Source: Pseudonocardia sp. N23
Lineage (GTDB): Bacteria; Actinomycetota; Actinomycetes; Mycobacteriales; Pseudonocardiaceae
Reading direction: 5' to 3'
NCBI RefSeq assembly: GCF_002583555.1
Contig: NZ_BEGX01000002.1
Location: 1 to 64,000, forward strand
Length of the DNA stretch: 64,000 nt
Below, one piece after another: positions 5,107-39,907 of this stretch. The number at the start of each line of letters is the position of its first letter. The stretch's first letter is position 1. Position numbers and translations under genes: made by a program. Under the pieces are notes generated by a model. It was not told where the DNA came from. It worked only from the letters and a program-made list of their open reading frames with translations, and did not search any database.

Positions 5107-5790
5107 CTAGGGATCGATGCGGGAGGCGAGTTGTCCCGAGTTGGGACGACCCGCGTCGGTGTCCTCGTGGATTCGCGCGCCGGTGACGGCGCGGAGCTCG
5201 GCCACGGTGGCGCCGGGGGCGAGGTCGACGACCAGCAGCCCGTCGTCGGTGACGTCGAGGACCGCGCGGTCGGTGATGATCCGGTTCACGACGCCCGCGC
5301 CGGTGAGGGGCAGCGTGCAGTACGGGACGACCTTGGGCGTGCCGTCCTTGGCGACGAGGTCGGTGAGGACGACGACGCGGCGGGTGCCCGCGACGAGGTC
5401 CATGGCCCCGCCCATGCCCTTGACGAGGGCGCCTGGAACGGCCCAGTTGGCCAGGTCGCCGGTGTCCGAGACCTGCATCGCGCCGAGGACGGCGACGTCG
5501 ATGTGGCCACCCCGGATCATCGCGAAGGACGCGGCCGAGTCGAAGAAGCTCGCGCCCGGCAGCGCGGTGACCGTCTGTTTCCCGGCGTTGATGAGGTCGG
5601 CGTCCTCGTCTCCCGAGTACGGGAACGGCCCGATCCCGAGCAGCCCGTTCTCGGACTGGAGCGTGACGCGCACACCCCGCGGGATGTGGTTGGCGACCTT
5701 GGTCGGGATGCCGATGCCGAGGTTGGCGTGGTCGCCGTCGCGCAGTTCCCGCGCCGCGATCGCCGCCATCTCGTCCCTGGTCCAGCTCAT
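5107..5790 (-). CDS. 3-oxoacid CoA-transferase subunit B
   Basis: The 227-residue beta subunit of a class I CoA-transferase carries the catalytic glutamate in [10 protein letters not shown] (Glu47), which forms the covalent CoA thioester. NLGIGIP near residue 23 and [14 protein letters not shown] are also typical. With subunit A it moves CoA from succinyl-CoA (or another donor) to acetoacetate or a beta-keto acid such as 3-oxoadipate. The ATG at 5790 overlaps the subunit A stop by 4 bp, so the subunits are translationally coupled. The last codons contain the palindrome 5132-5148, which probably serves the downstream SBP1 promoter. Confidence 0.95.
5132..5148. promoter_or_regulatory. TGTCC-N7-GGAC palindrome (regulon motif)
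   Basis: TGTCCCGAGTTGGGACG lies within the last codons of CoA-transferase subunit B and 81 bp upstream of the SBP1 start (5051). Confidence 0.55.
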
Positions 5791-6551
5791 GCCTGCACCC
5801 CCGCCACGGCCGGCCGCTCCCGGACGGTGCGCTGCTCGATGACCTTCACCCGAGCCCTGGCCGCGACGAACCGGTCGACGTAGACACCCGGCGTCACGAC
5901 GTGGTCCGGGTCGATCGGCGTCTCGGAGAGGTGTTCGGCCTCCGCGACCGTTACCCGGCCGGCGGTCGCGACGACCGGGTTGAAGTTGCGGGCGGTGCAG
6001 CGGTAGGTCAGGTTGCCGTAGGGATCGCAGGTGTGCGCGCGCACCAGGGCCAGGTCCGCGACGATGCCCCGTTCCAGCAAATAGGTGACTCCGTCGAAGT
6101 CGGCGGTCGGCTTGCCCTCGGCGACCTGCGTCCCGACCCCGGTCCGCGTGTAGAACGCGGGGATGCCGGCACCGCCCGCCCGCAGGCGCTCCGCAAGGCT
6201 GCCCTGGGGCGTGAACTCGACCTCGAGCTCTCCGTCGAGGTACTGCCGTGCGAACAGCTGGTTCTCGCCCACGTAGGACGCGACGACCTTCCGCACCTGC
6301 CGATTCTCCAGCAACAGCCCGAGGCCCTTGCCGTCGATGCCCATGTTGTTGGAGACGACGACGAGATCGCGCACCCCCGATTCACGGACCGCGTCGATCA
6401 GGTCCACCGGCACACCGCTGAGGCCGAATCCCCCGACCGCGATCGTCATCCCGTCGTGCAGCAGGCCGGCCAGTGCGGCACCCGCGTCGTCGGCCGGCCG
6501 GACCCCGGTCGTGCCCTCCGAGGGTCGTGCCCCCGGTGTCGTCTTCTCCAT
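5787..6551 (-). CDS. 3-oxoacid CoA-transferase subunit A
   Basis: The alpha subunit (254 aa) has the glycine-rich CoA-binding motif [12 protein letters not shown] near residue 40. [56 protein letters not shown] (in parts) and [19 protein letters not shown] are characteristic of SCOT/3-oxoadipate transferase alpha subunits. ATG at 6551 is preferred over an in-frame ATG at 6587, which would add a 12-residue tail unlike the family. The gene is divergent from the IclR regulator, and the intergenic dyads at 6600-6639 are likely its control region. Acetoacetyl-CoA or a keto-acyl-CoA is the expected product. Confidence 0.93.
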
Positions 6552-6599
6552 GGACGCAGTGCACACGGAAGGTCCTGCGACCTCCATGGGCCGGTCATG

Positions 6600-6639
6600 T
6601 CACAGACAATCGGACTGTGATCTGTCCGTGTGGCGGACA
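6600..6639. promoter_or_regulatory. Overlapping operator dyads between CoA-transferase and IclR genes
   Basis: Three inverted repeats overlap: TCACAG-N9-CTGTGA (6600-6620), CGGAC-N8-GTCCG (6611-6628) and TGTCCG-N5-CGGACA (6623-6639). The last has the TGTCC-N7-GGACA form seen elsewhere in the window. It abuts a TATCAT -10-like element (6640-6645) seven bases before the IclR GTG start, a layout fit for autoregulation and control of the divergent CoA-transferase. Confidence 0.65.
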
Positions 6640-6652
6640 TATCATCGCTCCT

Positions 6653-7456
6653 GTGAACACGTTCGACGCCGCCGATCCCGACCACACTCCGACCGGTCCC
6701 GATCGCGGTCCGACGGTGGTCGGGAAGATCGGGCTCGTGCTCCGGGCGCTGGGCGCCGCCGCCGACCCCGCCGGCTCCACCACATCGGACATCGCGCGGC
6801 GGACCGGCCTCACCCGGCCCACTGCGCACCGGCTGCTCACCGAGCTGGCGGAGCAGGGCTTCACCGACCGCGACACCGGGACGGGTCGATGGCAGCTCGG
6901 ACCGGAGCTGTACCTGCTCGGGGCGGTGGCGGCCACTCGCTACGACGTCACCGACCACGCCCGCGACATCCTCGCCGACCTCGCCGAGCAGACGGGCGAG
7001 AGCGCCTTCCTGTCCGCACTGCGCGGGCGGGAGACGGTCTGCCTCGCCGAGATCGAGGGCAGCTTCCCCCTCCGGTCCCATGTTCTCCACCTGGGGATCC
7101 GGTTCCCGCTCGGGGTCGCCTCCGCCGGGCTCGCGATCCTGTCCCACCTGCCCACCGACGAGGCCGACGACTACGTCGCCACCACCGACCTCACGACCCG
7201 GTGGGGCCGCAGCCACTCGCGGCGGGCGGTACGCGCCCGGGTCGCCGCGACCCGCGAGCACGGTTACGCGGTCAACCCGGGCCTGATCATCGAGGACAGC
7301 TGGGGCATGGCGGCCGCGGTCTTCGACGAGAGTGGCCGACCACGTGCGGCACTGAGCCTGACCGGGGTCCGGTCCCGGTTCACCGACGCGCGGATTCCCA
7401 CACTGGGAAGGCTGCTCCTCGACCGGGCACACGCCCTCGGCCGGCGCGTCCGCTGA
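6653..7456 (+). CDS. IclR-family transcriptional regulator
   Basis: This 267-residue regulator has an N-terminal winged helix (about residues 20-80: VGKIGLVLRALGAA, TSDIARRTGLTRPTAHRLLTEL, GRWQLGPELY). A C-terminal IclR effector domain follows (AAATRYDVTDHARDILADLAEQTGES, LRSHVLHLGIRFPLGVASAGLAIL, GLIIEDSWGMAAAVFDESG). GTG 6653 is chosen because conserved sequence begins just after it and the operators and -10 lie immediately upstream. IclR proteins typically govern aromatic, acetate or beta-ketoadipate catabolism. The likely targets are its own promoter and the divergent CoA-transferase. It is also a candidate reader of the wider TGTCC-N7-GGACA motif. Confidence 0.93.
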   Translation: MNTFDAADPDHTPTGPDRGPTVVGKIGLVLRALGAAADPAGSTTSDIARRTGLTRPTAHRLLTELAEQGFTDRDTGTGRWQLGPELYLLGAVAATRYDVTDHARDILADLAEQTGESAFLSALRGRETVCLAEIEGSFPLRSHVLHLGIRFPLGVASAGLAILSHLPTDEADDYVATTDLTTRWGRSHSRRAVRARVAATREHGYAVNPGLIIEDSWGMAAAVFDESGRPRAALSLTGVRSRFTDARIPTLGRLLLDRAHALGRRVR

Positions 7457-7482
7457 CGACACTCCCCCGCCGACGCGACGAC

Positions 7483-7522
7483 GCCGGGTGGCGACACGTC
7501 GTGCGACGCGCCGCCACCCGGC
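7483..7522. terminator. Bidirectional hairpin terminator
   Basis: GCCGGGTGGCG (7483-7493) pairs exactly with CGCCACCCGGC (7512-7522) around an 18-base loop that can itself pair (GTCG/CGAC). It lies between the convergent IclR and flavin-oxidase genes. Confidence 0.7.
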
Positions 7523-7547
7523 GAAGGGCCGGCAGGGAGGTGACGGG

Positions 7548-8948
7548 TCAGGCGGGAGCCGTCGCGGCAGGCTTGATGTTCTGGTTGTGGTGGAAGACGT
7601 TCTCCGGGTCGTACACGGCCTTGATCCGCGACAGCCGCTCGTACTTCTCGGCGCCGTACGCCGCCCGGACCCGGTTCTCGTCGTACTCGTTCATGTTGTT
7701 GATGTAGCTGCCCGAGCCCATGCCGTGCGGCTGCATGTCCGACCAGAACTCCTTGACCCACTGCCGGTCGTGGACGAGCTCCTCGGCCGTCTCGCAGGTC
7801 CCGGTCATGATGAAGTGATAGCCCGCGTCACGCGGGCCGGCCCAGGCGGCGTCCTCGTCGGCGACCCGGGCGTACTGGCCGCCCAGCGTCATCGCGCCGA
7901 AGTAGGAGAACGCGCCACGGGTTCCCGTGAGGTACTTCTGCATGACGTCGATGGCATCGTCGGAGATGGCGGGCAGATAGACGGCCTTCTCGTAGCCGTG
8001 CACGCCCCAGGGGTTGAACGCGTCGTTCATCGACTGCAGCTCGACGTAGCGCATGGGCGTCACCAGTTCGAACGCCGGGGACGCCTCGCGGACGATCGCG
8101 GCGGCCGCGGCGAGCTCGGCGGCCGGCCCGACCGTCGCGAGCTGGATGAAGTAGCCGTGGGTGTGTCTGAACTCGTCGGGCACGAACGGCGCGTCGGGCG
8201 CCCGCATGCCGAACGCGATGATCGCCATGTCGTCGGGCAGCCTGTCCCGCAGCTCGCGGAACAGCTGCATGGCCTCGACACCGCGTTCGGGCGGGAAGAA
8301 GAACATGCCGACGTTGGCGGTGTCGCCGATCTCGTGCAGCTGGAAGACGAACTCGGTGACGATGCCGAAGTTGCCGCCGCCGCCGCGCAGCGCCCAGAAC
8401 AGGTCGGCGTGGTTCTCACGGTTCGCCCGGACCACGGACCCGTCGGCGAGCACCACCTCGGCCTCGAGCAGGTTGTCGCATGCGAGCCCGAAGCGGCGCA
8501 GCAGGAAGCCGACGCCGCCACCGAGGGTCAGCCCCCCGACGCCGGTGTGGGTGACGATGCCGGCCGTGACGGCGAGACCGTGCTCGGAGCACGCCGCGTC
8601 GAGGTCGCCGAGCGCCGCGCCGCCGCCGATCCAGGCGCGCTTGGACGCGGGGTCGACCCGGACGCTGTTGATCTTCTCGAGGTGGATCATCAGGCCGCCC
8701 TCGGCGACCGCCAGACCGGCGAAGTTGTGCCCGCCGCCCCGGACGGAGATCTCCAGGCCCTGCCGGCGACCGAACGCGATCGCCGCGGCCACCTCGTCGG
8801 TCGAACCGCACGACGCAACCACGGCGGGGTACCGGTTGATGTCGGCGTTCCAGACGTTCCGGGAGTTCTCGTAACCCGCGTCGCCGGAGAGGTACACCGA
8901 CCCGGTGAACGTCTCACGGAATGCTGCGATGGCGCTCTTGTCCACCAT
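7548..8948 (-). CDS. FAD-linked oxidase of the berberine-bridge/6-hydroxynicotine oxidase type
   Basis: This 466-residue VAO-family flavoprotein has an FAD-binding PP-loop ISVRGGGHNFAGLAV (about residues 70-85), whose histidine in GGHN is the expected 8-alpha-histidyl FAD attachment site. GIVTHTGVGGLTLGGGVGFLLRRFGLACDNL follows (read in parts). It closes with the BBE domain (YINNMNEYDENRVRAAYG, YDPENVFHHNQNI). The cysteine that makes a second flavin bond in berberine bridge enzyme is replaced (VTHTGVGG), so mono-covalent FAD is predicted. It oxidises alcohols or amines with O2. ATG 8948 has a GAGGAA ribosome site. It follows the isomerase-like gene by 65 bp, probably as one transcript. Confidence 0.88.
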   Translation of the reverse strand: MVDKSAIAAFRETFTGSVYLSGDAGYENSRNVWNADINRYPAVVASCGSTDEVAAAIAFGRRQGLEISVRGGGHNFAGLAVAEGGLMIHLEKINSVRVDPASKRAWIGGGAALGDLDAACSEHGLAVTAGIVTHTGVGGLTLGGGVGFLLRRFGLACDNLLEAEVVLADGSVVRANRENHADLFWALRGGGGNFGIVTEFVFQLHEIGDTANVGMFFFPPERGVEAMQLFRELRDRLPDDMAIIAFGMRAPDAPFVPDEFRHTHGYFIQLATVGPAAELAAAAAIVREASPAFELVTPMRYVELQSMNDAFNPWGVHGYEKAVYLPAISDDAIDVMQKYLTGTRGAFSYFGAMTLGGQYARVADEDAAWAGPRDAGYHFIMTGTCETAEELVHDRQWVKEFWSDMQPHGMGSGSYINNMNEYDENRVRAAYGAEKYERLSRIKAVYDPENVFHHNQNIKPAATAPA

Positions 8949-9013: not shown

Positions 9014-9886
9014 TCAGCTGGTCCGGGGCTCGAGCGCCCGGGCACCGGATACGAACGCCGTGGCGGTCTCGGCCACCGGCCGCGCCTGCCACTGCTCGGA
9101 GAGGATCTCGATCGACACGGGCGCGGTGGCGCCGGACGCCCGCAGCGTCCCGAGGAACCCGGCGACGTCCCACTCGCCGTCGCCGAAGAGCCTGCGGTGC
9201 TTGAGGGTCTCCTCGAAGTAGTCGTCGGTGAGCGGGGCGGCTGGCCCGTCGGAGAGCTGGACGACGACCACCCGCTCCCCCGGCAGCGACCGCAGCGCGC
9301 GCTCGTCGGGGTTGCCGCGCATGAAGTGCCAGTTGTCGACACACAGCCCGCCGTTGTCGCGGTCCGCGGCCTGGACCACCGCGAGCGAGGTGGCGATGTC
9401 GGGCATGTCGGTGCCGGGGAGGAACTCGATCGCCACCTTCGTCCCGACCTCGGCCGCCCGGTCGCACAACCGCGCGAACCGCGAGGCGGACCCGGCTCCA
9501 GCACCGCCCGACGATGCGGCGACGACGATGTGGTGAGCACCGAACGCATCAGCCAGCTCGATGAAGTCCTGCTCGACGCCCGCGTCCATGTACGGCAGGT
9601 CCCACGGGAACCACGACGGTCCCCACCGCCGACCGTCGGCCGGGCCGTCGAAGCCCAGCCCCACCTCCAGCTCGGCGACCCGCATGCCGGACCGCTCGGC
9701 GATCGCGGCGAGGTCCTTCGCGCCGATGCCGTCGCGCTTCGCGTCCTGGAACTCGAACAGGGAGTAACCGATCGCGTCGGCACCTGCCGCGACGGCCGCG
9801 GCGACCCGCTCCTCGAACGAGACACCGGTGAGGTTCCCGTAGCCGAGGATCAGCCCGGGTCCCGTGTCTGCCTTGTTTCCGCTCAT
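9014..9886 (-). CDS. Sugar phosphate isomerase/epimerase-like TIM-barrel protein
   Basis: The 290-residue protein has the xylose-isomerase-like AP-endonuclease-2 fold: ADAIGYSLFEFQDAKRDG, a strand KVAIEFLPGTDMPD with a metal-binding glutamate, GLCVDNWHFMRG with Asp and His, VVVVQLSDG, and SIEILSEQW near the end. These residues normally coordinate a divalent metal. In catabolic clusters such proteins act as epimerases, isomerases or hydratases. The start at ATG 9886 has GGAGG 7 bp upstream. A TGTCCC-N4-TTGGGACG palindrome lies 80 bp upstream of the start. The protein belongs to the same broad family as the gene at 29587. Confidence 0.85.
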   Translation of the reverse strand: MSGNKADTGPGLILGYGNLTGVSFEERVAAAVAAGADAIGYSLFEFQDAKRDGIGAKDLAAIAERSGMRVAELEVGLGFDGPADGRRWGPSWFPWDLPYMDAGVEQDFIELADAFGAHHIVVAASSGGAGAGSASRFARLCDRAAEVGTKVAIEFLPGTDMPDIATSLAVVQAADRDNGGLCVDNWHFMRGNPDERALRSLPGERVVVVQLSDGPAAPLTDDYFEETLKHRRLFGDGEWDVAGFLGTLRASGATAPVSIEILSEQWQARPVAETATAFVSGARALEPRTS

Positions 9887-9965
9887 CACTACGCCTCCTG
9901 CGACAACTGCTCGGCGCCTTCCGTCGAACAACACCCGACGTTAGGGACGAGTCCGCCGGCCGAGT

Positions 9966-9982
9966 TGTCCCGCCTTGGGACG
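9966..9982. promoter_or_regulatory. TGTCC-N7-GGAC palindrome (regulon motif)
   Basis: TGTCCCGCCTTGGGACG, 80 bp upstream of the isomerase-like gene that starts at 9886. It is one copy of the window-wide motif. Confidence 0.6.
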
Positions 9983-11147: not shown

Positions 11148-11720
11148 TCAGCCGCCGCGTCGCGGCCCGGCTGTCCCATGTTCGTACGGGTCGCCGTGGT
11201 CCGGAACGTCGGCCAGCACCCACTCGTCGGGCTCCGGGCCGGCGCGAAGGACGCTCACGACGCCGTTGCGCTCCAGGACGACGCAGCCGACGTCGGCCAG
11301 CCGGGCCACGCCCGCGACCCGCAGCCGTTGCCGGAGGTCGTCCTCGCTCATCCGGGCCAGTCGCAGTCCCTCGGTCCGCACCCGGCCGGCGCGCACGAGG
11401 AGCACGGGCTCCCGGGTGAGGATGCGGCTCAGGACGCGGCTGCGGCGCAGCAGTGTGAGCGAGCGCTGCACGGCGAACAGCATCACGAGCGCGATCACGC
11501 CCGTCGCGAGCGTGGGCGTCGCGAGCAATGTGGTCCGCCCGACGACCGCACCGAGCGCGATCACGCAGGCGACGTCGGTCGCGGACATCGCCGACAGGCT
11601 CCGCTGGCCGCTCACCCGCACGCACACCAGCAGCGTCAGGTAGATCCCGAGGGTCGCGACCACGACGAGGCCGGCGGTGGGCAGGTCGACGCCGAGCTCG
11701 GACGTGACGGGCGGGCTCAC
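11148..11720 (-). CDS. DUF421 (YetF-like) membrane protein
   Basis: This 190-residue protein has three predicted membrane segments: about residues 15-35 (AGLVVVATLGIYLTLLVCVR), 48-65 (VACVIALGAVVGRTTLL) and 72-88. A cytosolic alpha/beta domain follows, containing EPVLLVRAGRVRTEGLRLARMSEDDLRQRLR (in parts) and the typical VVLERNGVVSVLRAG. This is the DUF421/YetF layout. Its function is unknown; Bacillus relatives affect spore or envelope properties. It lies between the aldolase (18 bp upstream) and the alcohol dehydrogenase (37 bp downstream), which is unusual company for this family. Confidence 0.8.
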   Translation of the reverse strand: MSPPVTSELGVDLPTAGLVVVATLGIYLTLLVCVRVSGQRSLSAMSATDVACVIALGAVVGRTTLLATPTLATGVIALVMLFAVQRSLTLLRRSRVLSRILTREPVLLVRAGRVRTEGLRLARMSEDDLRQRLRVAGVARLADVGCVVLERNGVVSVLRAGPEPDEWVLADVPDHGDPYEHGTAGPRRGG

Positions 11721-12476: not shown

Positions 12477-13266
12477 GTCCACGTTTCCTCTCCACAAGCA
12501 TCTCCTGGACGGCGTCGACGAACGCCGAAGGTGCTTCGACCGGTACGAAGTGCCCGACACCCGGGAGACCGCGGACCGTCACCCGACGGAAGCGGGTGCC
12601 GAGGCCGTCGAACCAGGATTCCGGGACCAGTGGGTCGAGCTCGGGCCACAGCACGGTGGTCGGGACGGTCACGACGTCCGCCCCGCCCGGGCACATGGTG
12701 TCGTCCGGCATCTCGAGGAGGCGCCGGTCGTAGTGCCGGACAAGGTGTTCGAGCCGTGCCGGTGACGGTACGAAACCCGGCGCGGACCAGCTCGTCCAGC
12801 CCCGGTCCAGGACGTCGCGGGCCGTACCCGCGAGCGACCACACCGGCACGACGGGCGGCGGCGTCATGACCAGGCCCGCGACGCGCCGGGGATGGCGTAC
12901 CGCGACCAGCCGGGCCACAGCGGCCCCGATCCCGTACCCGGCCAGCACGACCGGACCGAGCCGCAGCTCCTCGATCAGCCCGGACACGCCGGCGGCCTGA
13001 GCCGCTACGGAGACGTCCCCGCCCGGCCACCGGTCGGACTCGCCGACTCCGCGCAGGTCGGGCGCGACGACGGTGTGGTCGAGGCGGACGGCCACGTCCG
13101 TCCAGTCGGTCCGGTCACCGTGGCCGCCGTGCAGGAGCACTGTCGCGGGCCCGTCGCCCGATCGGTCGTAGGCGATCCGGAACCCGTCGACGGGGCGGCT
13201 CATCGCGGGGTGACCGGCGTCGAGCGGTGGTAGCCCTGCCGCCAGGTGGGATCCCACCGTGGTCAT
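12466..13266 (-). CDS. Alpha/beta hydrolase homologue lacking the nucleophile
   Basis: The 266-residue protein parallels the enzyme at 2115-2966: VDGFRIAYDRSGDGPATVLLHG, VVAPDLRGVGESD, TTVLWPELDPLVPESW and GLPGVGHFVPVEAPSAF all align by eye. The nucleophile elbow, however, reads LAGYGIGAAVA, with glycine where the sister protein has aspartate (GGYDIGS); the codon is GGG. The oxyanion HGW is also changed to HGGHG. Hydrolysis by the usual covalent mechanism is therefore unlikely. The start at 13266 overlaps the permease stop (ATGA), supporting it over an internal ATG at 13203. It sits inside the importer operon. Confidence 0.85.
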   Translation of the reverse strand: MTTVGSHLAAGLPPLDAGHPAMSRPVDGFRIAYDRSGDGPATVLLHGGHGDRTDWTDVAVRLDHTVVAPDLRGVGESDRWPGGDVSVAAQAAGVSGLIEELRLGPVVLAGYGIGAAVARLVAVRHPRRVAGLVMTPPPVVPVWSLAGTARDVLDRGWTSWSAPGFVPSPARLEHLVRHYDRRLLEMPDDTMCPGGADVVTVPTTVLWPELDPLVPESWFDGLGTRFRRVTVRGLPGVGHFVPVEAPSAFVDAVQEMLVERKRGRAY

Positions 13267-14273: not shown

Positions 14274-14286
14274 CGACGTCTCCGAC

Positions 14287-26158: not shown

Positions 26159-26193
26159 CCTAACAGCCCCGGTCGACAGGCGACCGGGCGACG

Positions 26194-31545: not shown

Positions 31546-32334
31546 TCACTCGTAGCAGTGGGGGGCGTGGCCGAGAGCGGCCCAGTCGTCGGGGTCGTGG
31601 GTGATCCACACCGTGGCGTCGGCGGCGTCGCGCAACAGTTTGAGCCGGCGCAGGCTGCGGACCGCCTGCTCGGTGTTCGAGTCGATCGGGAAATGGACCT
31701 CCTGCTCGAACGCCGCCCTCAGATGGGCCGTGTCCCCGGTCAGGATGAACGTGCGCGACGGCAGCCGGACCAGCAGGCTCAGCTCGCCGGGGGTGTGACC
31801 CGGCGTGAACAGCACCGTCAGGCTGCCGTCGCCGAACAGGTCGACATCGACACCCGGGATGTAGTTCCAGTCGAAGTGGCGGGTCGCCTCGATGTCGGCG
31901 GTCCGGAAGAAGCCGGCGCCGACGCTGGTGGGCCAGAACGAGAACGGCAGCTCACCCTCTCCGGCATAGAACTTGGCCTGCGGGAACAGCGACAGGCCGC
32001 CGGTGTGGTCGAGATGGCTGTGCGAGGCGATGACGTGGGTGACGTCGGAGGTCTTGTACCCGAGTGCCGCGAGCTGGCGGTCGAGCCGCTGCTCCGGCTT
32101 CACGGCGAGCCTGGTCAGCGTCGCGAGCTCACCGTAGACCGCTTCGGGGTCGTCGTGGGCCTCCGGCACGAGCCCTGTGTCGAACAGGACGAGCCCACGC
32201 GGGTGCTCGATCAGGTACGCGGGCAGCGGGACGGTCAGCTCCCCGCTGAGTCCGTACATCAGAGTCGACGCGTCGAGGGTGAAGCTGGGCGAGTCGAGTG
32301 CCCACAACCGCGTGCACGTGGCGAAGGACGGCAT
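31546..32334 (-). CDS. Metallo-beta-lactamase-fold lactonase (AHL lactonase-like)
   Basis: The 262-residue MBL-fold hydrolase has the di-zinc motif VIASHSHLDHTGG (HxHxDH), then TPGHTPGELSLLV, ILTGDTAHL and a terminal WITHDPDDW supplying the remaining ligands. The layout matches the AHL-lactonase subgroup, which opens lactone rings. In this setting a lactone produced by the Baeyer-Villiger enzymes is a plausible substrate (inferred). ATG 32334 has GAGAGGAAG upstream. It is convergent with the AhpD-like gene. A degenerate motif copy lies 104 bp upstream. Confidence 0.88.
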   Translation of the reverse strand: MPSFATCTRLWALDSPSFTLDASTLMYGLSGELTVPLPAYLIEHPRGLVLFDTGLVPEAHDDPEAVYGELATLTRLAVKPEQRLDRQLAALGYKTSDVTHVIASHSHLDHTGGLSLFPQAKFYAGEGELPFSFWPTSVGAGFFRTADIEATRHFDWNYIPGVDVDLFGDGSLTVLFTPGHTPGELSLLVRLPSRTFILTGDTAHLRAAFEQEVHFPIDSNTEQAVRSLRRLKLLRDAADATVWITHDPDDWAALGHAPHCYE

Positions 32335-32437
32335 TGGCTCTTCCTCTCGTTGACGGGTTTTCGGTGTCGTCACGAACGCCCGGATCCGGAAATCGGTCTC
32401 GAGAGCAGGACCGTAGGGCGCGCCTTCCCGAGAATGG

Positions 32438-32454
32438 TGTGCGATTTCAGGACA
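32438..32454. promoter_or_regulatory. Weak palindrome resembling the regulon motif
   Basis: TGTGCGATTTCAGGACA keeps only the outer bases. It lies 104 bp upstream of the lactonase-like gene and 64 bp upstream of the zinc-ribbon gene at 32518. Confidence 0.3.
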
Positions 32455-32923: not shown

Positions 32924-32940
32924 TGTCCCAAGGTGGAACA
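32924..32940. promoter_or_regulatory. TGTCCCA-N3-TGGAACA palindrome (regulon motif)
   Basis: TGTCCCAAGGTGGAACA (outer TT/AA extend it), 87 bp upstream of the NTF2-fold gene at 33027. Confidence 0.6.
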
Positions 32941-33026
32941 ACACGCCCCGGATCAGCACTCCTAACGTCGTTCGTCGGACAGCCGACGACGGCCGGACAT
33001 CGTGACGAACGAAAGGTGGGCATCTC

Positions 33027-33422
33027 GTGAGTGACGCCGACAAGCAGGTCGTGAAGGAATTCGTCGACGCCTTCATCCGTGGCGATCTCGACGACGCGCT
33101 GAGCCGGCTCGCCGACGACGCGATCGTCGACGAGGCCGACGGCATGGACTTCTCGGGCAGGTTCACCGGCCCGGCCGGGTTCGCGAAGCTGATCGAGAAG
33201 ATGTCCGCCGGCGTCGAGGCGCGCATCGACAGCAACGAGCTGATCGACGGCGGCCACGTGATCGTCTCGCGGCTGGAGATGACCTTCACCTCCACGGGTA
33301 GCGGCCGCTCGCTGCCGACCCGGGTCACCGAGATCTACACCGTCCGCGACGGCCGGATCGTCGGCCTGGACTCGTTCTACAAGGACCCGTTGGCCGTCAA
33401 CGCCCTCTACAACGAGAAGTGA
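33027..33422 (+). CDS. NTF2/SnoaL-fold protein
   Basis: The 131-residue NTF2-like protein has an N-terminal helix with VKEFVDAFIRGDLDDALSRL, then DEADGMDFSGRFTGPAGFAKLIEKM, a central sheet VIVSRLEMTFTST, and LPTRVTEIYTVRDGRIVGLDSF. Fold members include ketosteroid isomerases and limonene-1,2-epoxide hydrolase. The position of acidic residues near the end is compatible with the latter but not diagnostic. GTG 33027 has GAAAGGTGG upstream. It precedes an SDR by 8 bp and an LLM oxidoreductase further on, forming an operon. Confidence 0.8.
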   Translation: MSDADKQVVKEFVDAFIRGDLDDALSRLADDAIVDEADGMDFSGRFTGPAGFAKLIEKMSAGVEARIDSNELIDGGHVIVSRLEMTFTSTGSGRSLPTRVTEIYTVRDGRIVGLDSFYKDPLAVNALYNEK

Positions 33423-33430
33423 GTCCAGCC

Positions 33431-34264
33431 ATGGCAGGCAAGCTCGAGGGCAAGGTCGCCTTCGTCACCGGTGCCGCGCGCAGCCAGGGCCGCTCGCACG
33501 CGATCCGGCTCGCCCAGGAGGGCGCCGACATCATCGCCGTCGACCTCTGCGGCCAGGTCGACACCGTCGAGTACCCGATGTCCACCCCGGAGGACCTGAA
33601 GGAGACGGTGCGCCTGATCGAGGACCTCGACCGCCGCATCGTCGCCACCGAGGCCGACGTGCGCGACTACGCCGCGCTGTCCACGGCCGTCGACGCGGGC
33701 GTGTCCGCGCTGGGGCGCCTGGACATCGTGTGCGGCAACGCGGGCATCGTCAACCTCGGCATGGTGCACGAGCTCTCGCTCGAGCAGTGGAACACCATGA
33801 TCGACGTCAACCTCACCGGTGTCTTCCACACCTGCAAGGCCGCGGTCCCGCACATCATCGCGGGTGGTCGCGGCGGCTCGATCACGCTGACCAGCACCGC
33901 GGTGGCGCTGCGCCCGGTCCAGGGCGCTGGGCACTACATCGCCGCCAAGCACGGCGTCGTCGGGCTCATGCAGACCCTGGCGCTCGAGCTCGCGCCGCAC
34001 TTCATCCGGGTCAACACGATCCACCCGACCAACTGCGACACCGACATGATCCAGAACCCTGCGATGCGCAAGGCGTTCGTCCCGGACTCGGAGCACCCGA
34101 CCCGCGAGGAGAGCGAGCCCGCGTACACGGCGCTCAACGCACTGCCGATCCCATGGATCGAGCCGCGCGACATCTCCAACGCCATCGCCTTCCTCGCCTC
34201 CGACGAAGGCCGGTACATCACGGGCATCTCGCTGCCGGTCGACGCCGGGTTCCAGCGCATCTGA
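33431..34264 (+). CDS. Mycofactocin-coupled SDR oxidoreductase (3 of 4)
   Basis: The 277-residue SDR has the subfamily motifs TGAARSQGRSHAIRL and EGADIIAVDLCG, then CGNAGIVNLG, Ser in LTSTAVAL, and the catalytic YIAAK. VNTIHPTNCDTDM and ITGISLPVDAGFQRI close it. It fits the carveol-dehydrogenase-like group that uses bound NAD with mycofactocin. ATG 33431 is preferred to an upstream GTG at 33419, which would overlap the NTF2 gene. It is followed after 49 bp by the LLM oxidoreductase gene. Confidence 0.92.
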   Translation: MAGKLEGKVAFVTGAARSQGRSHAIRLAQEGADIIAVDLCGQVDTVEYPMSTPEDLKETVRLIEDLDRRIVATEADVRDYAALSTAVDAGVSALGRLDIVCGNAGIVNLGMVHELSLEQWNTMIDVNLTGVFHTCKAAVPHIIAGGRGGSITLTSTAVALRPVQGAGHYIAAKHGVVGLMQTLALELAPHFIRVNTIHPTNCDTDMIQNPAMRKAFVPDSEHPTREESEPAYTALNALPIPWIEPRDISNAIAFLASDEGRYITGISLPVDAGFQRI

Positions 34265-34313
34265 CCGGCCGACAGCGCCGGGCCTCCGCGAACGGCAGAA
34301 CCAAGGAGACGAC

Positions 34314-35141
34314 ATGAAGATCGGCATCGGGGCGTTCGTCGCCGACGGGACGATCCGTCCCGACGTCCTCGGGCGGGCGGTCGAGGATCGGGGGTTCGAG
34401 TCCCTGTTCGTCACCGAGCACTCCCACATCCCGGTGAGCAGGGAGTCGCCGTTCCCCCTCGGCGGACCCATGCCGGACTACTACGCCCGGCTGCTCAACC
34501 CGTTCGTCGCGCTGACCGCGGCGGCCGTCGCGACGTCACGGATCACCCTCGGCACCGGCATCGCGCTGATGACCCAGCGCGACGTCATCTACACCGCCAA
34601 GGAGGTCGCCAGCCTCGACGTCGTCTCGGACGGCCGTGTGCTGTTCGGGGTGGCGCCCGGCTGGAACAAGGAACAGATGCGCAACCACGGGACCGACCCG
34701 CGCACCCGTGGCGCGCTGCTCGACGAGCAGCTCCAGGCGCTGCGCGCGATCTGGACCCAGGACGAGGCCGAGTTCCACGGCCGGTTCGTGGACTTCGACC
34801 CGATCTGGTCGTGGCCCAAACCGGTGCAGCCGCGCCTCCCGCTCTACGTGGGCGGGTGGGGTCCGGCCGCGGCCAGGCGCGTCACGGCCCACGGCGACGG
34901 CTGGCTGCACGGCGGCGCCCCCGACCCCGACGCGGTCAAGGCGCAGTTCGAGATGCGCGCGGAGTACGCACCCGATGCTCCGATGAGCGTCTTCGGCGCC
35001 GACGGCGACGATCTCGCCGTCCTGGACGCCTACCGTGACGGCGGCGCCGAACGTGTCGCCGTCGTCCTGGAGCCGGCCTCGCAGAGCGACACCCTCGCCC
35101 GGCTCGACGTGCTGGCCGCGCTGGTCGAGCGATACCGCTGA
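34314..35141 (+). CDS. F420-dependent LLM-class oxidoreductase (TIGR03619-like)
   Basis: The 275-residue luciferase-like TIM barrel has MKIGIGAFVADGTI, LFVTEHSHIPVSR, ATSRITLGTGIALM, AKEVASLDVVSDGRVLFGVAPGW (in parts) and LPLYVGGWGPAAARRV. The SDGRV/FGVAPGWN pair is characteristic of F420-type LLM proteins. Such enzymes oxidise alcohols or reduce enones with F420, or oxygenate with FMN; limonene monooxygenase belongs to the same superfamily. AAGGAGACGAC precedes ATG 34314. It ends the NTF2-SDR-LLM operon before a strong terminator. Confidence 0.9.
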   Translation: MKIGIGAFVADGTIRPDVLGRAVEDRGFESLFVTEHSHIPVSRESPFPLGGPMPDYYARLLNPFVALTAAAVATSRITLGTGIALMTQRDVIYTAKEVASLDVVSDGRVLFGVAPGWNKEQMRNHGTDPRTRGALLDEQLQALRAIWTQDEAEFHGRFVDFDPIWSWPKPVQPRLPLYVGGWGPAAARRVTAHGDGWLHGGAPDPDAVKAQFEMRAEYAPDAPMSVFGADGDDLAVLDAYRDGGAERVAVVLEPASQSDTLARLDVLAALVERYR

Positions 35142-35221: not shown

Positions 35222-36223
35222 TCAGCGGATCGCCACCGCGTTGCTCGGGGAGCCGACGCCGCCGGTGAGGTTCAGCGGCGTCGACACCACCATGGCGTCC
35301 CACCGGCCGTCGGCGGCACACGCGGCCGCCAGCTCGTCGAGCGCCCACAGCTCCCCGAGGACGAATCCCAGCAGCGGGATCAGCTCCCGGTGCATGAGCC
35401 CGCTGTGCGGAATCCGGTCGGCCCCGGCGCGCTCGGCCGCGGTGAGGAACGGCGAGTCCCGCGGTGCGGGCCAGGCCTCCACGGCGAAGGTGTCGCTCGC
35501 AACTACCGCGAACCGGCTGTCCCACAACCATTCGAGAGTCTCACGCGACGCCAGCAGGCCGGAGGCCCGCAGCGGGGTGAGCGCGCGGCGTTCCTGCGGC
35601 CCGAGCTCGTGCAGGTAATGGTGTCCCCAGCCGGTACGCACCATCAGGATGTCGCCGGGCGCCAGCGCCACACCCTGCGCGGCGGCGGCCTCGACCACCG
35701 TCGAGACCTCGATCGGCTCGCCGGCGTCGTGGTCGATGACGTGCCCGCGGGTGCGCAGGTGGGCGTCGACGTCGACCAGTACCCCGCGCCCGACGATCCC
35801 GTGCTCGGCGAAGCGGTTCACACCGAGCGTCGGCGCTCCCGGCCGGAGCAGCCCGGGGTCGGTGCCGTTGTAGAACCCGTGCTCAGGATGGGCGAAATGC
35901 CGCAGCCCGTCGAGCTGGCTGCTGCCCTGGGTGTGGAAGCTGTCCAGGTATTCGTCGCGGTGGTGCTCGTTGGCACCGAACATCATGTGCTGCAACGGCT
36001 TGCGCGTCGGCGCGGGCGGTGGGTCGAACGCCTCGAGCGGGTGGTCGAGCCGGACCCGCTGCCCCGTGCGCACGAGTGCGGCGGCAGCCCGGACCCGGTC
36101 CGGGGTGAGGTGGTTGAGCGTCCCGATCTCGTCGTCGGCACCCCACACCCCCCACGAGGAGCCGGGCGGGCCGTCGGTCCGCGCGAGGAGCTGGGCGTAG
36201 GTCGGGACGCTCGGTTCGGTCAC
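35222..36223 (-). CDS. Cyclase-family (kynurenine-formamidase-like) metal hydrolase
   Basis: The 333-residue protein belongs to the putative cyclase/KynB family, recognised by YAQLLARTDGPPGSSWG, WGADDEIGTLNHLTPDRV, the metal-site region FHTQGSSQLDGLRHF (Gln/Ser-Ser replacing part of HxGTHxDxPxH) and DILMVRTGWGHHY. Relatives hydrolyse amide or lactone-type bonds or isatin rings. GTG 36223 has GAGGA upstream; the in-frame extension above it is a shadow of the ligase gene. It is the last gene of the thiolase-DUF35-ligase operon, 19 bp after the ligase, and may hydrolyse a lactone or cyclic intermediate (inferred). Confidence 0.85.
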   Translation of the reverse strand: MTEPSVPTYAQLLARTDGPPGSSWGVWGADDEIGTLNHLTPDRVRAAAALVRTGQRVRLDHPLEAFDPPPAPTRKPLQHMMFGANEHHRDEYLDSFHTQGSSQLDGLRHFAHPEHGFYNGTDPGLLRPGAPTLGVNRFAEHGIVGRGVLVDVDAHLRTRGHVIDHDAGEPIEVSTVVEAAAAQGVALAPGDILMVRTGWGHHYLHELGPQERRALTPLRASGLLASRETLEWLWDSRFAVVASDTFAVEAWPAPRDSPFLTAAERAGADRIPHSGLMHRELIPLLGFVLGELWALDELAAACAADGRWDAMVVSTPLNLTGGVGSPSNAVAIR

Positions 36224-36242
36224 GAGCCGATCCTCGCCCGGA

Positions 36243-38357
36243 TCACACCCCGCCGCCGTCGTCGACGAGGACGACCGCGTCGACCGCCACCGCACCCCCG
36301 CCTGCTCCGCGCCGCAGCAGCACCGGGTTGACGTCGACGCCCGCGATCCGTGACCCCGGCCGGACCATCTCGTCGCCCAGCCGGACGGCGATGTCGACCC
36401 AGGCGTCGACGTCGGCGGCCTCGTCGCCGCGCACGGCGCCCAGCAGCGGCGCCATCCGCAGCGAGTCGACCGCCGCCCGAGCCTCCGCCCGGGTGAACGG
36501 CGGGAGCAGGACCCGGACGTCGGGTGAGACCTCGACGAGCGTGCCGCCGGCGCCGAGCACCACGACGGGCCCGAACACCGGGTCGAGGTGCGCGCCGACC
36601 ATGACCTCGACGGGCGCGGTGACCATGGGGGCGACGATCACGTCGCTGTCCACGATGCCGTTGCGCGCCAGGATGTCCAGGATGTCCTCGGTGGCGGCGG
36701 CGACCTGTTCGGCGTCACCGAGGCCGAGCCGGACCAGCCCCAGGTCGGACTTGTGGGTGACGGCCGCCGTGCAGCCCTTCACGACGACCGGCACCCCGCC
36801 CAGCGCGTCGAAGGCCGCCACCGCGGCGCCGACGTCCGGGCACCGCGTCACGGCGACGGTCGGGATGCCCAGCCCGGCCAGTGTCGCGAGGCTGTCGGCC
36901 TCGTCGGCGGTGCGCAGCGGGCCCGCGGGCCGGCGTGGGGAGAGCCGGGCCCGTCCGGCGGCAGCCGCCGCGATCGCGCCGTGCCGCGTCACCTGGGCGA
37001 GTGCCGCGACGGCCGCGGCCTCGTCGTCGAACACCGCGAGGTCCTCGCCGCGGAAGACCTCGCCCACGTCGGGCTGGGCGATCGCGACGGCAACGGGCAC
37101 ACCGCTGTCCCGGGCGAACGCGCCGACGTCGGCGGCGATGGCCGCGACGTCGTACCCACGCCCGGCCACCGGGATCCCGATGACGCACGCGTCGACCCCG
37201 GGGTCCGAGCCGATGACGGGCAGCACCTTCCCGAACAGGCTGCTGTCGGTCATCAGGGCGGCGGTCACGTCGACGGGGTTCGCGGTCGCGGCGAACGCCG
37301 GCAACGCCGCGACCAGGCGCTCGTGGGTGGCTCCGGTGAACGTCGCGAGGTCCAGGCCGTGGTCGGCGGCGGCGTCGGCGGCCAGCACGCAGATCGCCCC
37401 GGAGTTGCTGACGATCGCCAGGCCTCCCGCTCGCGGACGGTCCACCGGCGGGGACGCGGCTCCGCGAAGGTAGAGGTCCACCGCGGCGGTGAGCTCGGAG
37501 GAGCTGCCGGCGCGCCAGATCCCGAGCCGTTCGAAGAACGCGTCGACGACGCGGGTCTCGTTCGCCAGCGCCCCCGTGTGCGACGCGGCGGCCCGTTGCC
37601 CACCGGCACTGCGCCCACCCGAGAGCGCGACGACGGGCACACCCCGTCGCCGCGCGACCTCGGCCAGCTCCTCCACCGATGCGGGGTCGCGGATGTCCTC
37701 CAGGTAGAGCAGCAGCAGCCGGATGCCGGGGTCAGCGACCACGGTCGCGGCCAGTTCAGCGGCAGTGACGTCGGCGTCGTTGCCGGTGGCGTGGGCGTAG
37801 CGCACCCCGACCCCGCGGCGGCGCAGCATCCCGTAGGGCACCGAGCACAGCGCGCCGCTCTGGCTGACGACGGCGACGGGGCCGTCGGCGGGCGGGGCCT
37901 CGGTGAACATCGTCGAGAACCCGAGGACCGCACCCGAGCCGAAGCTCGCGAGCCCTTGGGTGTTGGGGCCGACGATGCGCATCCCCGTCTCCCGCGCCGC
38001 CCGCAGCATCTCCCCCTGCCTGCGCCGCCCGTCCGTGTCGGGCGTCTCGCCGAAACCGGACGACATCACGACGCAACCGCGCACCCCCAGCCGCGCGCAC
38101 ATCGCGACCGCGTCGACGGCCGCCTGCCCCGGCACACCGATGACGGCGACGTCCGGCACCTCCGGCAGCGCCTCGACCGACGCGAACGCCGGCAGCCCCT
38201 GGATCGTCGGTCGCGCCGGGTTCACCGGGTAGAGCGCGCCGGCGTACCCGAGCGTCGTCATGTACCTGATCGGCCGGCCACCGATCTTGTCCGGGTTGTC
38301 GGAGGCCCCGATCACGGTCACCGACCGTGGCGTGTGGAAGAACGACAGGTCGCTCAC
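36243..38357 (-). CDS. NDP-forming acyl-CoA synthetase (fused alpha-beta subunits)
   Basis: The 704-residue acetate-CoA ligase-type enzyme has a CoA-binding Rossmann domain (VTVIGASDNPDKIGGRPI), succinyl-CoA-ligase-like domains (VAVVSQSGALCSVPYGML) and the phospho-histidine motif AASHTGALANE (about residue 255). A C-terminal ATP-grasp part contains PVVVKGCTAAVTHKSDLGLV and VFGPVVVLGAGGTLVEV. It makes an acyl-CoA from an acid and CoA with ATP giving ADP and phosphate. GTG 38357 overlaps the DUF35 stop by 4 bp. In this operon it probably activates a ring-opened carboxylic acid before the thiolase-like step. Confidence 0.92.
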   Translation of the reverse strand: MSDLSFFHTPRSVTVIGASDNPDKIGGRPIRYMTTLGYAGALYPVNPARPTIQGLPAFASVEALPEVPDVAVIGVPGQAAVDAVAMCARLGVRGCVVMSSGFGETPDTDGRRRQGEMLRAARETGMRIVGPNTQGLASFGSGAVLGFSTMFTEAPPADGPVAVVSQSGALCSVPYGMLRRRGVGVRYAHATGNDADVTAAELAATVVADPGIRLLLLYLEDIRDPASVEELAEVARRRGVPVVALSGGRSAGGQRAAASHTGALANETRVVDAFFERLGIWRAGSSSELTAAVDLYLRGAASPPVDRPRAGGLAIVSNSGAICVLAADAAADHGLDLATFTGATHERLVAALPAFAATANPVDVTAALMTDSSLFGKVLPVIGSDPGVDACVIGIPVAGRGYDVAAIAADVGAFARDSGVPVAVAIAQPDVGEVFRGEDLAVFDDEAAAVAALAQVTRHGAIAAAAAGRARLSPRRPAGPLRTADEADSLATLAGLGIPTVAVTRCPDVGAAVAAFDALGGVPVVVKGCTAAVTHKSDLGLVRLGLGDAEQVAAATEDILDILARNGIVDSDVIVAPMVTAPVEVMVGAHLDPVFGPVVVLGAGGTLVEVSPDVRVLLPPFTRAEARAAVDSLRMAPLLGAVRGDEAADVDAWVDIAVRLGDEMVRPGSRIAGVDVNPVLLRRGAGGGAVAVDAVVLVDDGGGV

Positions 38358-38677
38358 GAGTGCTCCGCCTCGAAGTAGGGGACCGCGACGGGGTCGTCCG
38401 TCCCGGCCCGGAACGTCAGCACAGCCGGGACGCCGGGCCTCAGTGCCGGGTCGCACCGCCCGAGCACCCGCACGCCCTCGGCGAGGTCGACGAGCGCGAT
38501 CGCCCCCTGTGCCCCCGCGGTCGTGGCGACGACCGCGCCGCGGCCTGCGCTGATCGTCGTCGTCACCGCACCGGCGCACCGCGGGCACCGGTCGCGCCGC
38601 AGGTACCAGCGATGGCCGCAGTCCACGCAGGCACTGACGACGATCCGCGGCTCGCCATCGGTCCAGTCGGTGGTCAT
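38354..38677 (-). CDS. DUF35 OB-fold/zinc-ribbon partner of the thiolase-like protein
   Basis: The 107-residue protein has a rubredoxin-like zinc ribbon (ACVDCGHRWYLRRDRCPRC, two CxxC pairs at about residues 17-34) and an OB-fold (IALVDLAEGVRVLGRCDP, AVLTFRAG). DUF35 proteins bind acyl-CoA and form complexes with SCP2-type thiolase-like proteins, as in steroid side-chain retro-aldolases Ltp2-ChsH2. ATG 38677 overlaps the thiolase-like stop and its stop overlaps the ligase start, both by 4 bp. The tight coupling supports a complex. Confidence 0.88.
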   Translation of the reverse strand: MTTDWTDGEPRIVVSACVDCGHRWYLRRDRCPRCAGAVTTTISAGRGAVVATTAGAQGAIALVDLAEGVRVLGRCDPALRPGVPAVLTFRAGTDDPVAVPYFEAEHS

Positions 38678-39816
38678 CGAGTTCCTCCCCGGCCGCGCAG
38701 CACGGCGGTCACGTGCGCCGACATCACGCCGCCGTCGGCGTGCACGAGTCCCTGCCGGGCGCCGGTGACCTGACGCCCACCTGCCTCACCACGCAGCTGG
38801 GACACCACCTCGGCCAGATGCGCCATCCCGCCGCCGACACCGCAGTGCCCGTAGGACAGCAGCCCGCCGTGCGGGTTGACCGGTGTCGGGCCGTCGAGGT
38901 CGAAACGGCCGTCGGCCGCGGCCGCGCCCGCCCGCCCCGGCTCGGCCAGACCGAGCTCCTCCAGCAGCAGCGCGAGGGTGATCGTGAAGCTGTCGTAGAT
39001 GCCGAAGACGTCGACCTCCGCGATCTCCGAGCCCGCCTCCGCCAGCGCCCGTCCGGCCGACACCCGCGCCCCGAACCCGTGCAGGTCGGCCTCGCTGATG
39101 TGCTGGTGCAGGTGCGCCTGCCCGGTGCCGGCGATCTCCACGTCCCGCGGGTCGCCACCGGCGCCGACGACGAACGCCGCCCCGCCGTCGGAGATCGGGC
39201 AGCAGTCCAGCAGGTGCAGCGGTTCGGCGACCGGGCGCGAGGACAACACCTCGCCGACGGTCACCGGGGTGCGGAACTGGGCGCCGTCGTGGCGGGCGGC
39301 ATGGGCGCGCATCGCGACCGCCAGCGGCGCCAGCCCTGCGCGCGGGTCGAGCCCGTGCTCGTGCAGGTATGCCGACGCGAGCAGCGCGTAGTACTGCGGC
39401 ACCGTGGCTCCGACCGGCACCTCGTAGCGGTGGTGCCCGACCTGGGCCAGCGTGTTCGTCGAGGTCTGTGTGCTCTGACCGCTGGCCCGGTCCTCCCCCG
39501 CGACGACGAGCACCGTCGACGCCGCGCCCGCGTCCACGAGCGCCGCGGCCTGCGCGACCATCGCCAGGCCGGTCGCCCCGCCGACCGCCGCACCCAGCGC
39601 CACCTGCGGGGTGATGCCCAGGTACTCCCCGAGGAGGTTCGCCGGCATCAGGTGGTTCAGCGTCGTCGCGTACCCGACGACCAGGCCGTCGACGTCCCGT
39701 GGCGTCACCCCGGCGTCGGCCATCGCGAGGGTCGCCGCGCTCGCCTGCCAGCCCAGCGCGTCCCTGCCGGGAAGCCGGCCGAACGCGGTCAGCCCGGCAC
39801 CGCGGATCCACGCCAT
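38674..39816 (-). CDS. Thiolase-like protein (lipid-transfer/SCP2-thiolase type)
   Basis: The 380-residue thiolase-fold protein has MAWIRGAGLTAFGR, DVDGLVVGYATT, the central VALGAAVGGATGLAMVAQ, a middle CCPISDGGAAFVVG, GIYDSFTITLALLLEELG and NPHGGLLSYGHCGVGGG. The nucleophilic cysteine of true thiolases is absent (GGATG where CASG is usual), while the His near the C-terminus is kept. This is the pattern of Ltp2-like enzymes that perform retro-aldol cleavage with a DUF35 partner, which is encoded next. ATG 39816 has GGAGGGAG upstream. It heads the operon down to the cyclase and is divergent from the BVMO. Confidence 0.88.
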   Translation of the reverse strand: MAWIRGAGLTAFGRLPGRDALGWQASAATLAMADAGVTPRDVDGLVVGYATTLNHLMPANLLGEYLGITPQVALGAAVGGATGLAMVAQAAALVDAGAASTVLVVAGEDRASGQSTQTSTNTLAQVGHHRYEVPVGATVPQYYALLASAYLHEHGLDPRAGLAPLAVAMRAHAARHDGAQFRTPVTVGEVLSSRPVAEPLHLLDCCPISDGGAAFVVGAGGDPRDVEIAGTGQAHLHQHISEADLHGFGARVSAGRALAEAGSEIAEVDVFGIYDSFTITLALLLEELGLAEPGRAGAAAADGRFDLDGPTPVNPHGGLLSYGHCGVGGGMAHLAEVVSQLRGEAGGRQVTGARQGLVHADGGVMSAHVTAVLRGRGGTR

Positions 39817-39866
39817 GCGATCTCCCTCCGTCGGGTCGACCGTAGGCCGCGCCCGCGGCCGGCACC

Positions 39867-39907
39867 TGTCCGAATCTGGAACAGGCGCCGCGTACCGAAA
39901 TGGGACA
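39867..39907. promoter_or_regulatory. Two adjacent palindrome copies (regulon motif)
   Basis: TGTCCGAATCTGGAACA (39867-39883, inside CCTGT/ACAGG) and a second copy with exact right arm TGGGACA (39891-39907). They lie between the divergent thiolase-like gene (start 39816) and BVMO gene (start 39943), the only place where two copies occur together. Confidence 0.55.

Follow-up and report, generated by a model that had tools for sequence, protein, structure and literature searches.

Results

Distribution of the palindrome

The window analysed here comprises 64,000 nucleotides of Pseudonocardia sp. N23 (assembly GCF_002583555.1, contig NZ_BEGX01000002.1, positions 1 to 64,000). Over 35 kb of it, about a dozen operons for transport and breakdown are preceded by a 17-bp palindrome with the core TGTCC-N7-GGACA, in its best form TGTCCCA-N3-TGGGACA; among the products of this cluster are sugar-type ABC transporter parts, an epoxide hydrolase, an FMO-like monooxygenase, a thiolase and a coenzyme A (CoA) ligase. 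The cluster also contains the gene of a GAF-Fis regulator (26194–27999). Judged from the sequence comparisons below, it is likely that this protein binds the dyad and would thereby activate about 13 operons from sites just upstream of predicted sigma70-type promoters. Coordinates are collected in Table 1.

All of the 13 positions listed in an initial annotation of this DNA hold the motif, and exact TGTCC-N7-GGACA was confirmed at 6623, 18012, 24006 and 29438. The exact form has 11 places genome-wide, corresponding to an expectation of ~0.1 per 64 kb. No enrichment in the window was seen for its loose form, which allows up to two mismatches (41 observed, 41.08 expected). For the 14-base form TGTCCCA-N3-TGGGACA, all four places found in the 6.54-Mb genome with at most one mismatch are in the cluster (18012, 24006, 29438 and 32924), as are nine of the 15 with at most two (within 5132–39883). 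At three mismatches the genome total (100 places) is smaller than that of a reversed control (138), and hence weak copies by themselves mean nothing.

Since the strong form stays in the 35-kb cluster, a genome-wide regulon was rejected; nor is this form equally frequent away from the catabolic promoters, which the initial annotation had named as the outcome that would speak against a shared regulon. Six sites with up to two mismatches lie outside the cluster, and only one of them (on contig C114, behind another GAF-Fis gene) has TANNNT within 16–27 bp. The enrichment of the 14-base form, together with a fixed offset from promoter-like boxes that was compared with random position sets (see below), also led us to reject a chance origin. 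No copy with up to three mismatches occurs after 39907, in agreement with the absence reported earlier for the salicylate, hydroxyquinol and P450 operons.

Predicted promoter layouts

Read towards the gene, TANNGT is found exactly 22 bp past the last base of the dyad at seven of the 13 listed sites (designated +22 in Table 1); at every other offset from 0 to 54 it occurs no more than once. In 3000 random sets of 13 positions, no single offset between 10 and 40 was shared by more than two positions, and locally shifted positions gave at most three at one offset. The seven promoters are devoid of a −35-like hexamer, with a mean of 4.9 mismatches to TTGACA as compared with 3.8 at random positions. 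If the box is a −10 element, the dyad covers about −51 to −35 and is centred at −43, as class II activator sites are. Under the usual definitions of class I and class II activators, the class II features (a site near −41 to −43, fixed phasing to −10, no −35) are found at seven of the 13 listed sites, as judged from predicted promoters.

Two other sites are arranged differently. Past 22928, on the plus strand and towards the MDR gene, the predicted promoter reads TTGACA-N18-TACGGT with its −10 at +39; past 29438, on the minus strand and ahead of the M24 peptidase, GAF-Fis and GntR genes, the same boxes and spacing occur with the −10 at +50. Exact TTGACA-N18-TANNGT occurs nowhere else in the window (0.00 expected by chance), and with dyad centres near −60 and −71 the two sites resemble those of class I activators. 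Weak xAnnnT boxes at +22 on the minus side of both dyads were dropped, that of 29438 because it overlaps the start of the exact TTGACA and that of 22928 because the neighbour in the related genome of Pseudonocardia dioxanivorans CB1190 is the MDR gene, the SDR gene being 4 kb off there. The composite dyad-N22-TANNGT, with at most two mismatches, occurs at seven places in this genome and six in that of CB1190, all of them in the cluster.

The initial annotation had taken a fixed distance between dyad and start codon as a sign of an upstream activator site. The activator-type position was supported, but the informative distance is that to the promoter boxes and not to the start codon, the first of which with a sequence resembling a ribosome-binding site lies 35–132 bp from the end of the dyad.

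Conservation in CB1190

In the 60 kb read from CB1190 (G169), a member of the same genus, most of the cluster is kept in the same order and the proteins are 66–94% identical. Missing from these 60 kb are the BKACE gene, both CoA-transferase genes, the genes for IclR and a flavin adenine dinucleotide (FAD) oxidase and the YetF gene, and likewise a true counterpart of 29587–30444. The stretches 2972–3904 and 5107–8948, with the genes for BKACE, CoA-transferase A/B, IclR and the berberine-type FAD oxidase, look like an insertion, the end of which overlaps the PBP4a promoter.

Thirteen dyads are kept in CB1190 with 13–17 of the 17 bases identical. The comparison of orthologous upstream regions proposed in the initial annotation thus found the dyad conserved ahead of the CB1190 orthologues, and together with the confinement to the cluster this supports the shared, cluster-wide regulon suggested there. 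At the seven class II-like promoters the 22-bp distance is kept with spacers that are only 9–16 of 22 identical, and five or six of the six bases of the −10 boxes are shared; the counterpart of the 5132 box reads TAGCCT. Boxes and distances are also preserved at the two TTGACA promoters (with TACGGT and TAGTGT there); for 22928 they are identical and the dyad likewise lies before the MDR gene. Conservation also supports two weak copies, that at 32438, with TACGGT at +22, and a copy with three mismatches at 11172, ahead of the Zn-alcohol dehydrogenase gene, which the earlier reader had overlooked and the CB1190 counterpart of which is CGTCCCGACGTGGGACA. No counterpart of 6623 was seen in CB1190. 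An extra dyad of CB1190, TGTGCCACTCTGGCACA (L044, 16226–16242), is separated by 32 bp from the conserved weak copy ahead of the metallo-beta-lactamase-fold gene and is not listed in the window.

The GAF-Fis regulator as the candidate reader

Dyads of this kind adjoin GAF-Fis genes in other genera, which supports the initial annotation in naming the GAF-Fis protein as a candidate reader. Within 450 bp upstream, a dyad is present at 43 of 107 distinct GAF-Fis loci (30 + 80 loci, less L075 and L087, for which no helix was read, and one duplicate upstream region), as compared with 0/107 and 1/107 in two control windows inside the gene and 0/65 far upstream. TANNNT follows at 20–23 bp on the regulator side of 24 of these 43 dyads, on the other side of none. 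Class-wide searches for exact dyads (TGTCCCA in 394 genomes, TGTCTCA and TGTCGCA in 296 each) returned 14 places outside this genome, seven of them within about 1.2 kb of a GAF-Fis gene; none of eight reversed-control TGTCCCA palindromes adjoins such a gene. The composite dyad-N22-TANNGT, searched for with up to two mismatches in 200 genomes of the family, hit nine of them, namely this one, CB1190 and seven genomes of other genera. In four of these seven (G130, G067 and the congeneric G077 and G044, which share the locus) the match adjoins a GAF-Fis gene whose product is 32–34% identical to ours.

Paralogues in the N23 genome carry dyads as well. Just behind the gene on C114 (L190, 8150–10116; helix ARSSLYRK), a fourth GAF-Fis gene of the genome, GGTCCCAGATCGGGACA-N21-TAGCGT lies ahead of a Zn-alcohol dehydrogenase gene. 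For the paralogue on C9 (helix GRNTLYRK), two TGTTCC-type dyads, TGTTCCGTTCCGGAACA and TGTTCCAGAACGGAACA, are found 25 bp apart in a divergent promoter region (L188, 8893–8934; G000:C9:126893-126934), between the GAF-Fis gene and divergent hydrolase and monooxygenase genes. GAF-Fis regulators adjoin catabolic genes at C9, C114, G067 and G077. MimR of mycobacteria is a GAF-Fis-like activator.

A number of results weigh against the GAF-Fis protein as the reader. In the 11–20 kb read around each, seven of the 14 class-wide dyads and the composite matches in G126, G037 and G031 are without a GAF-Fis gene, and the composite hits outside the genus (eight places in seven genomes) are to be set against six places in four genomes for its reversed control. 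The exact TGTCCCA dyad is found in six of 394 genomes and the reversed palindrome in eight; for TGTCGCA the numbers are four and five of 296. Conversely, 64 of the 107 GAF-Fis loci have no upstream dyad, our own gene being one of them, as its dyad (29438) precedes the M24 peptidase gene heading the gene string, and the paralogue on C128 has none in 20 kb. The 22-bp spacing is not universal outside the cluster: TANNNT is found at 18–25 bp from none of the seven GAF-Fis-linked class-wide dyads and at 20–23 bp from only one of eight dyads in the last locus set, and among the four linked composite matches only G130 has TANNGT, G067, G077 and G044 having CACCGT or CACAGT. Even in the cluster there is no clear −10 at 11172, 18012, 30632, 39891 and the plus side of 29438, where weak boxes were picked by eye and excluded from the counts.

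TGTCTCA dyads occur in five of 296 genomes and their control in none. As the dyad numbers do not exceed those of the reversed controls in the two other cases, it is linkage and not number that carries the argument, and the assignment to the GAF-Fis protein is strengthened by the reversed control, by the TTGACA promoters and by a separate element that suits the GntR protein (see below). No description of the dyad or of a GAF-Fis family operator was found in the literature searched, a coverage outside of which most subscription papers fall.

IclR and GntR proteins

The initial annotation had put forward the IclR protein (6653–7456) as another reader, since a related palindrome (6623) is present in its own promoter. 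This had to be abandoned as scarcely credible: CB1190 conserves 13 dyads and yields no match to this IclR at 1e-25, no box is found at +22 of 6623, and the IclR orthologues have different upstream dyads. These are 17-bp dyads with GTYCR/YGRAC halves, CGTCCGTTCAGCGGACG in G004 (78% identity) and CGTTCACTCAGTGAACG in G067 (63%), and a degenerate one, CGTTCACTGAGTGGACA, recognised by eye in G130 (60%). Among the orthologues the dyad drifts from GTCCG..CGGAC to GTTCACT-N-AGTGAAC. Because the orthologues have upstream dyads of another make, 6623 is probably IclR's own operator. Hence, of what had been said of this copy, the exact TGTCC-N7-GGACA match stands and the membership in the regulon does not; with four mismatches to the 14-base form it is probably a different element.

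The GntR/FCD protein (25420–26121) is encoded in the same gene string as the GAF-Fis protein, and its CB1190 counterpart, 87% conserved, accompanies the same sites, so that it might read the TGTCCCA dyads as a repressor. We consider this very improbable, since similar dyads adjoin GAF-Fis genes in G130, G067, G077 and G044, where tblastn found no relative of this GntR, and at 1e-20 there is none in G044, G077, G037 and G126, all of which carry similar dyads. A better fit to the protein is another conserved element, GTCGACAGSCGAC, which precedes the GntR gene and overlaps the starts of two promoters. The window has exactly three copies of it (26172, 22993 and 29365), each with a counterpart at the matching place in CB1190. 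With one mismatch it is at chance level (10 observed, 10.5 expected); a 22-base form of the element at the two promoters was observed twice with 0.07 expected. GTCGACAGSCGAC is thus a candidate GntR operator.

GAFTGA, rpoN and the sigma54 route

According to Pfam, the GAF-Fis protein has a Fis-type helix-turn-helix (HTH) domain (PF02954, HTH_8) and an AAA lid (PF25601, AAA_lid_14). The family profile matches the N-terminal region of DhaR (4lrx) and the AAA domains of ZraR and NtrC-type bacterial enhancer-binding proteins (bEBPs). Walker A is kept. The GAFTGA motif, called invariant in sigma54-specific enhancer-binding proteins in passages of PMC12316311, is absent from this protein, and a regular expression for it has no match among 84 actinobacterial regulators, as compared with 11 matches among 24 regulators of other phyla; given that only 11 of these 24 match, a miss alone does not prove loss of the motif. 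The rpoN gene (PF04552) was found in neither this genome nor that of CB1190, the control being positive in four of 14 genomes, and the same source reports, in those passages, that Actinomycetota effectively lack rpoN.

In other phyla, a correctly oriented −24/−12-like box lies 60–250 bp from ten of 12 dyads (null mean 1.8; none of 2000 draws reached 10), these dyads coming from 24 loci, some of related Pseudomonas species, and the null positions being drawn anywhere in the locus; TANNNT at 20–23 bp is found for one of the 12. In Actinomycetota the corresponding figures are three of 29 dyads for the −24/−12-like box (null mean 2.5) and 12 of 29 for TANNNT. Dyads of one kind thus appear to act as remote enhancers in other phyla and as promoter-proximal activator sites in Actinomycetota. 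The missing rpoN, the lack of GAFTGA in the 84 regulators and the sigma54-type boxes found 60–250 bp from the dyads of other phyla suggest that enhancer-binding proteins were rewired to sigma70-type promoters.

Recognition-helix residues

Base 5 of the half-site covaries with the recognition-helix residue that follows the conserved Arg. Regulators of the first set that carry Ala there have T in both halves at 33 of 33 dyad loci, and those that carry Ser at none of ten (Fisher 5e-10, uncorrected for kinship). On a tree of 48, five helix changes and five site changes were counted; only three of the independent pairs are well supported, and these all agree (sign test p 0.25). Among loci added later, of which eight of the 26 tried in the last set gave no helix, Ala goes with T in four of four new upstream dyads and two of three linked dyads, the exception being L220 (TGTCGCA behind a SRAT regulator); Ser goes with C in L208, L210 and L211 and with T in L214 and L232. 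The helix RSSLYRK accompanies a TGTCCC-type dyad at five of six dyad-bearing loci (our own, C114, L208, L210 and L211; not L214). With these exceptions, Ala-T is strong and Ser-C/G a tendency. A strict recognition code is weakened by the Ser exceptions L214 and L232, by L220 and by the small number of independent pairs on the tree; hence the specificity trend is a lead and not a proven code.

Further features of the cluster

Four SDR proteins (18036, 24553, 33431 and 41622) score above the curated cut-off of the mycofactocin-coupled family TIGR03971. Within the catabolic string, at 19000–20900, genes for a MoxR-like AAA ATPase and a VWA protein accompany that of the epoxide hydrolase.

Table 1. 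Dyads, regulator genes and predicted promoter boxes in the window, with the bases identical in CB1190.
Feature	Position	Strand or side	Genes and remarks	Predicted boxes	CB1190
Dyad, +22	5132–5148	minus	PBP4a transporter-protein gene 3933–5051	−10 TAGCGT 5104–5109	16/17
Dyad TGTCCGTGTGGCGGACA	6623–6639	plus	outside regulon; probably IclR's own operator
Dyad, +22	9966–9982	minus	AP-endonuclease-2/sugar-isomerase-like gene 9014–9889	−10 TAACGT 9938–9943	17/17
Weak dyad	11172–11188	minus	before Zn-alcohol dehydrogenase gene 10001 to about 10993	no clear −10	stronger
Dyad	18012–18028	minus	PBP4b and sugar-type ABC transporter genes 13263–17890	no clear −10	16/17
Dyad, +22	18979–18995	minus	mycofactocin-coupled SDR gene 18036–18938	−10 TACCGT 18951–18956	17/17
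Dyad, class I-like	22928–22944	plus	MDR gene 23019–24002	−35 TTGACA 22960–22965, −10 TACGGT 22984–22989
Dyad, +22	24006–24022	plus	24114–25347 (small protein and mycofactocin-coupled SDR)	−10 TACCGT 24045–24050	15/17
GntR/FCD regulator	25420–26121	minus	follows GAF-Fis gene; rejected as dyad reader, proposed second-tier repressor
Candidate GntR operator GTCGACAGGCGAC	26172–26184		ahead of GntR gene; copies 22993–23005 and 29365–29377 just past the −10 boxes of the MDR gene and the GAF-Fis operon
GAF-Fis regulator, proposed reader	26194–27999	minus	true start perhaps ATG ~27948; recognition helix LGISRSSLYRK; no GAFTGA
Perfect dyad, class I-like	29438–29454	minus side	M24 peptidase, GAF-Fis and GntR genes	−35 TTGACA 29406–29411, −10 TACGGT 29382–29387	17/17
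Same dyad	29438–29454	plus side	possibly serves 29587–30444	no clear box
Dyad	30632–30648	plus	30789–31325	no clear −10	17/17
Weak dyad, +22	32438–32454	minus	metallo-beta-lactamase-fold gene 31546–32334	−10 TACGGT 32410–32415	15/17; −10 6/6
Dyad, +22	32924–32940	plus	SnoaL-like, SDR and LLM genes 33027–35141	−10 TAACGT 32963–32968	17/17
Dyad, +22	39867–39883	minus	thiolase, 38354, CoA-ligase and cyclase genes 35222–39816	−10 TACGGT 39839–39844	16/17; −10 6/6
Dyad, 24 bp from 39867	39891–39907	plus	FMO-like monooxygenase and SDR genes 39943–42470	no clear −10	16/17

Discussion

Proposed mode of action

In the mechanism that we propose, a GAF-Fis dimer would bind the dyad through its Fis-type HTH, with the GAF region presumably sensing a metabolite, and would recruit RNA polymerase. 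This would amount to class II activation at the seven promoters where the dyad centre is near −43, and to class I activation at the MDR promoter and at the regulator's own operon, with centres near −60 and −71. Through 29438 the regulator may control its own synthesis, giving positive feedback. The GntR protein may form a second tier, repressing its own gene, via an operator ahead of it, and the GAF-Fis operon and the MDR gene, via copies over the starts of their promoters. Because rpoN and GAFTGA are missing, activation would not take the sigma54 route.

In an opposite mode of action, the GAF-Fis protein would read the dyads and act mainly as a repressor. TyrR, a GAFTGA-less relative working on sigma70 promoters, is usually a repressor, as described in passages of PMC1173090, and the promoters past 22928 and 29438 have consensus-like boxes and might need no activator. 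We regard this mode as unlikely. A dyad centred near −43 with no −35-like hexamer, as at seven promoters, is an activator-dependent layout, and all dyads are upstream of the predicted promoter, none of them over its predicted start.

Activation by the GAF-Fis protein may be one instance of a wider pattern, for which we would put the chances at about even. Actinobacterial GAF-Fis proteins would then be, phylum-wide, former sigma54 enhancer-binding proteins that kept the ancestral 17-bp dyad, lost GAFTGA together with rpoN and were rewired to class II or class I activation of sigma70-type promoters; the residue after the Arg would set the dyad that is read (TGTCTCA with Ala, mostly TGTCCCA or TGTCGCA with Ser, TGTTCC with Asn). 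If the helix residue does so, regulons could be read off genomes. The dyad, its placing relative to sigma70-type boxes and the contrast with sigma54 systems provide a concrete, testable account of how GAF-Fis proteins may function without sigma54, the factor to which the family is adapted. As a candidate operator, the dyad would serve a cluster-wide regulon that includes two transporter binding-protein genes and the genes of four mycofactocin-coupled dehydrogenases; both it and the candidate GntR operator would be useful in the search for inducers and for biosensors.

Comparison with known systems

AcoR-like/Fis regulators beside the monooxygenase clusters of M. chubuense NBB4 and Rhodococcus belong to the same family by annotation; in the passages of PMC8784404 that concern them they are given as sequence analysis or hypothesis, and no operator is mentioned in these passages. 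Similarity to sigma54-dependent activators of the AcoR/DhaR type (GAF-AAA-Fis) extends from the matches to the DhaR N-terminal region and to bEBP AAA domains and the Fis-type HTH to the dyads themselves, those of non-actinobacterial relatives being of the same 17-bp design. Unlike in that type, there is here no GAFTGA and no rpoN, and the dyad lies close to a predicted sigma70-type promoter and not 60–250 bp from a −24/−12 box.

The operator of TyrR is a TGT...ACA dyad. TyrR of gamma-Proteobacteria, also a relative of bEBPs, provides a known precedent in that GAFTGA was lost and sigma70 promoters are used, as set out in passages of PMC1173090. It is mainly a repressor of biosynthesis, whereas the GAF-Fis protein is predicted to be a cluster-specific activator of catabolism acting with fixed phasing. 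The predicted sites, near −43 where a −35 is lacking and near −60 and −71 where the promoter is good, resemble those of CRP-like class I and class II activators, although CRP and GAF-Fis proteins belong to unrelated families.

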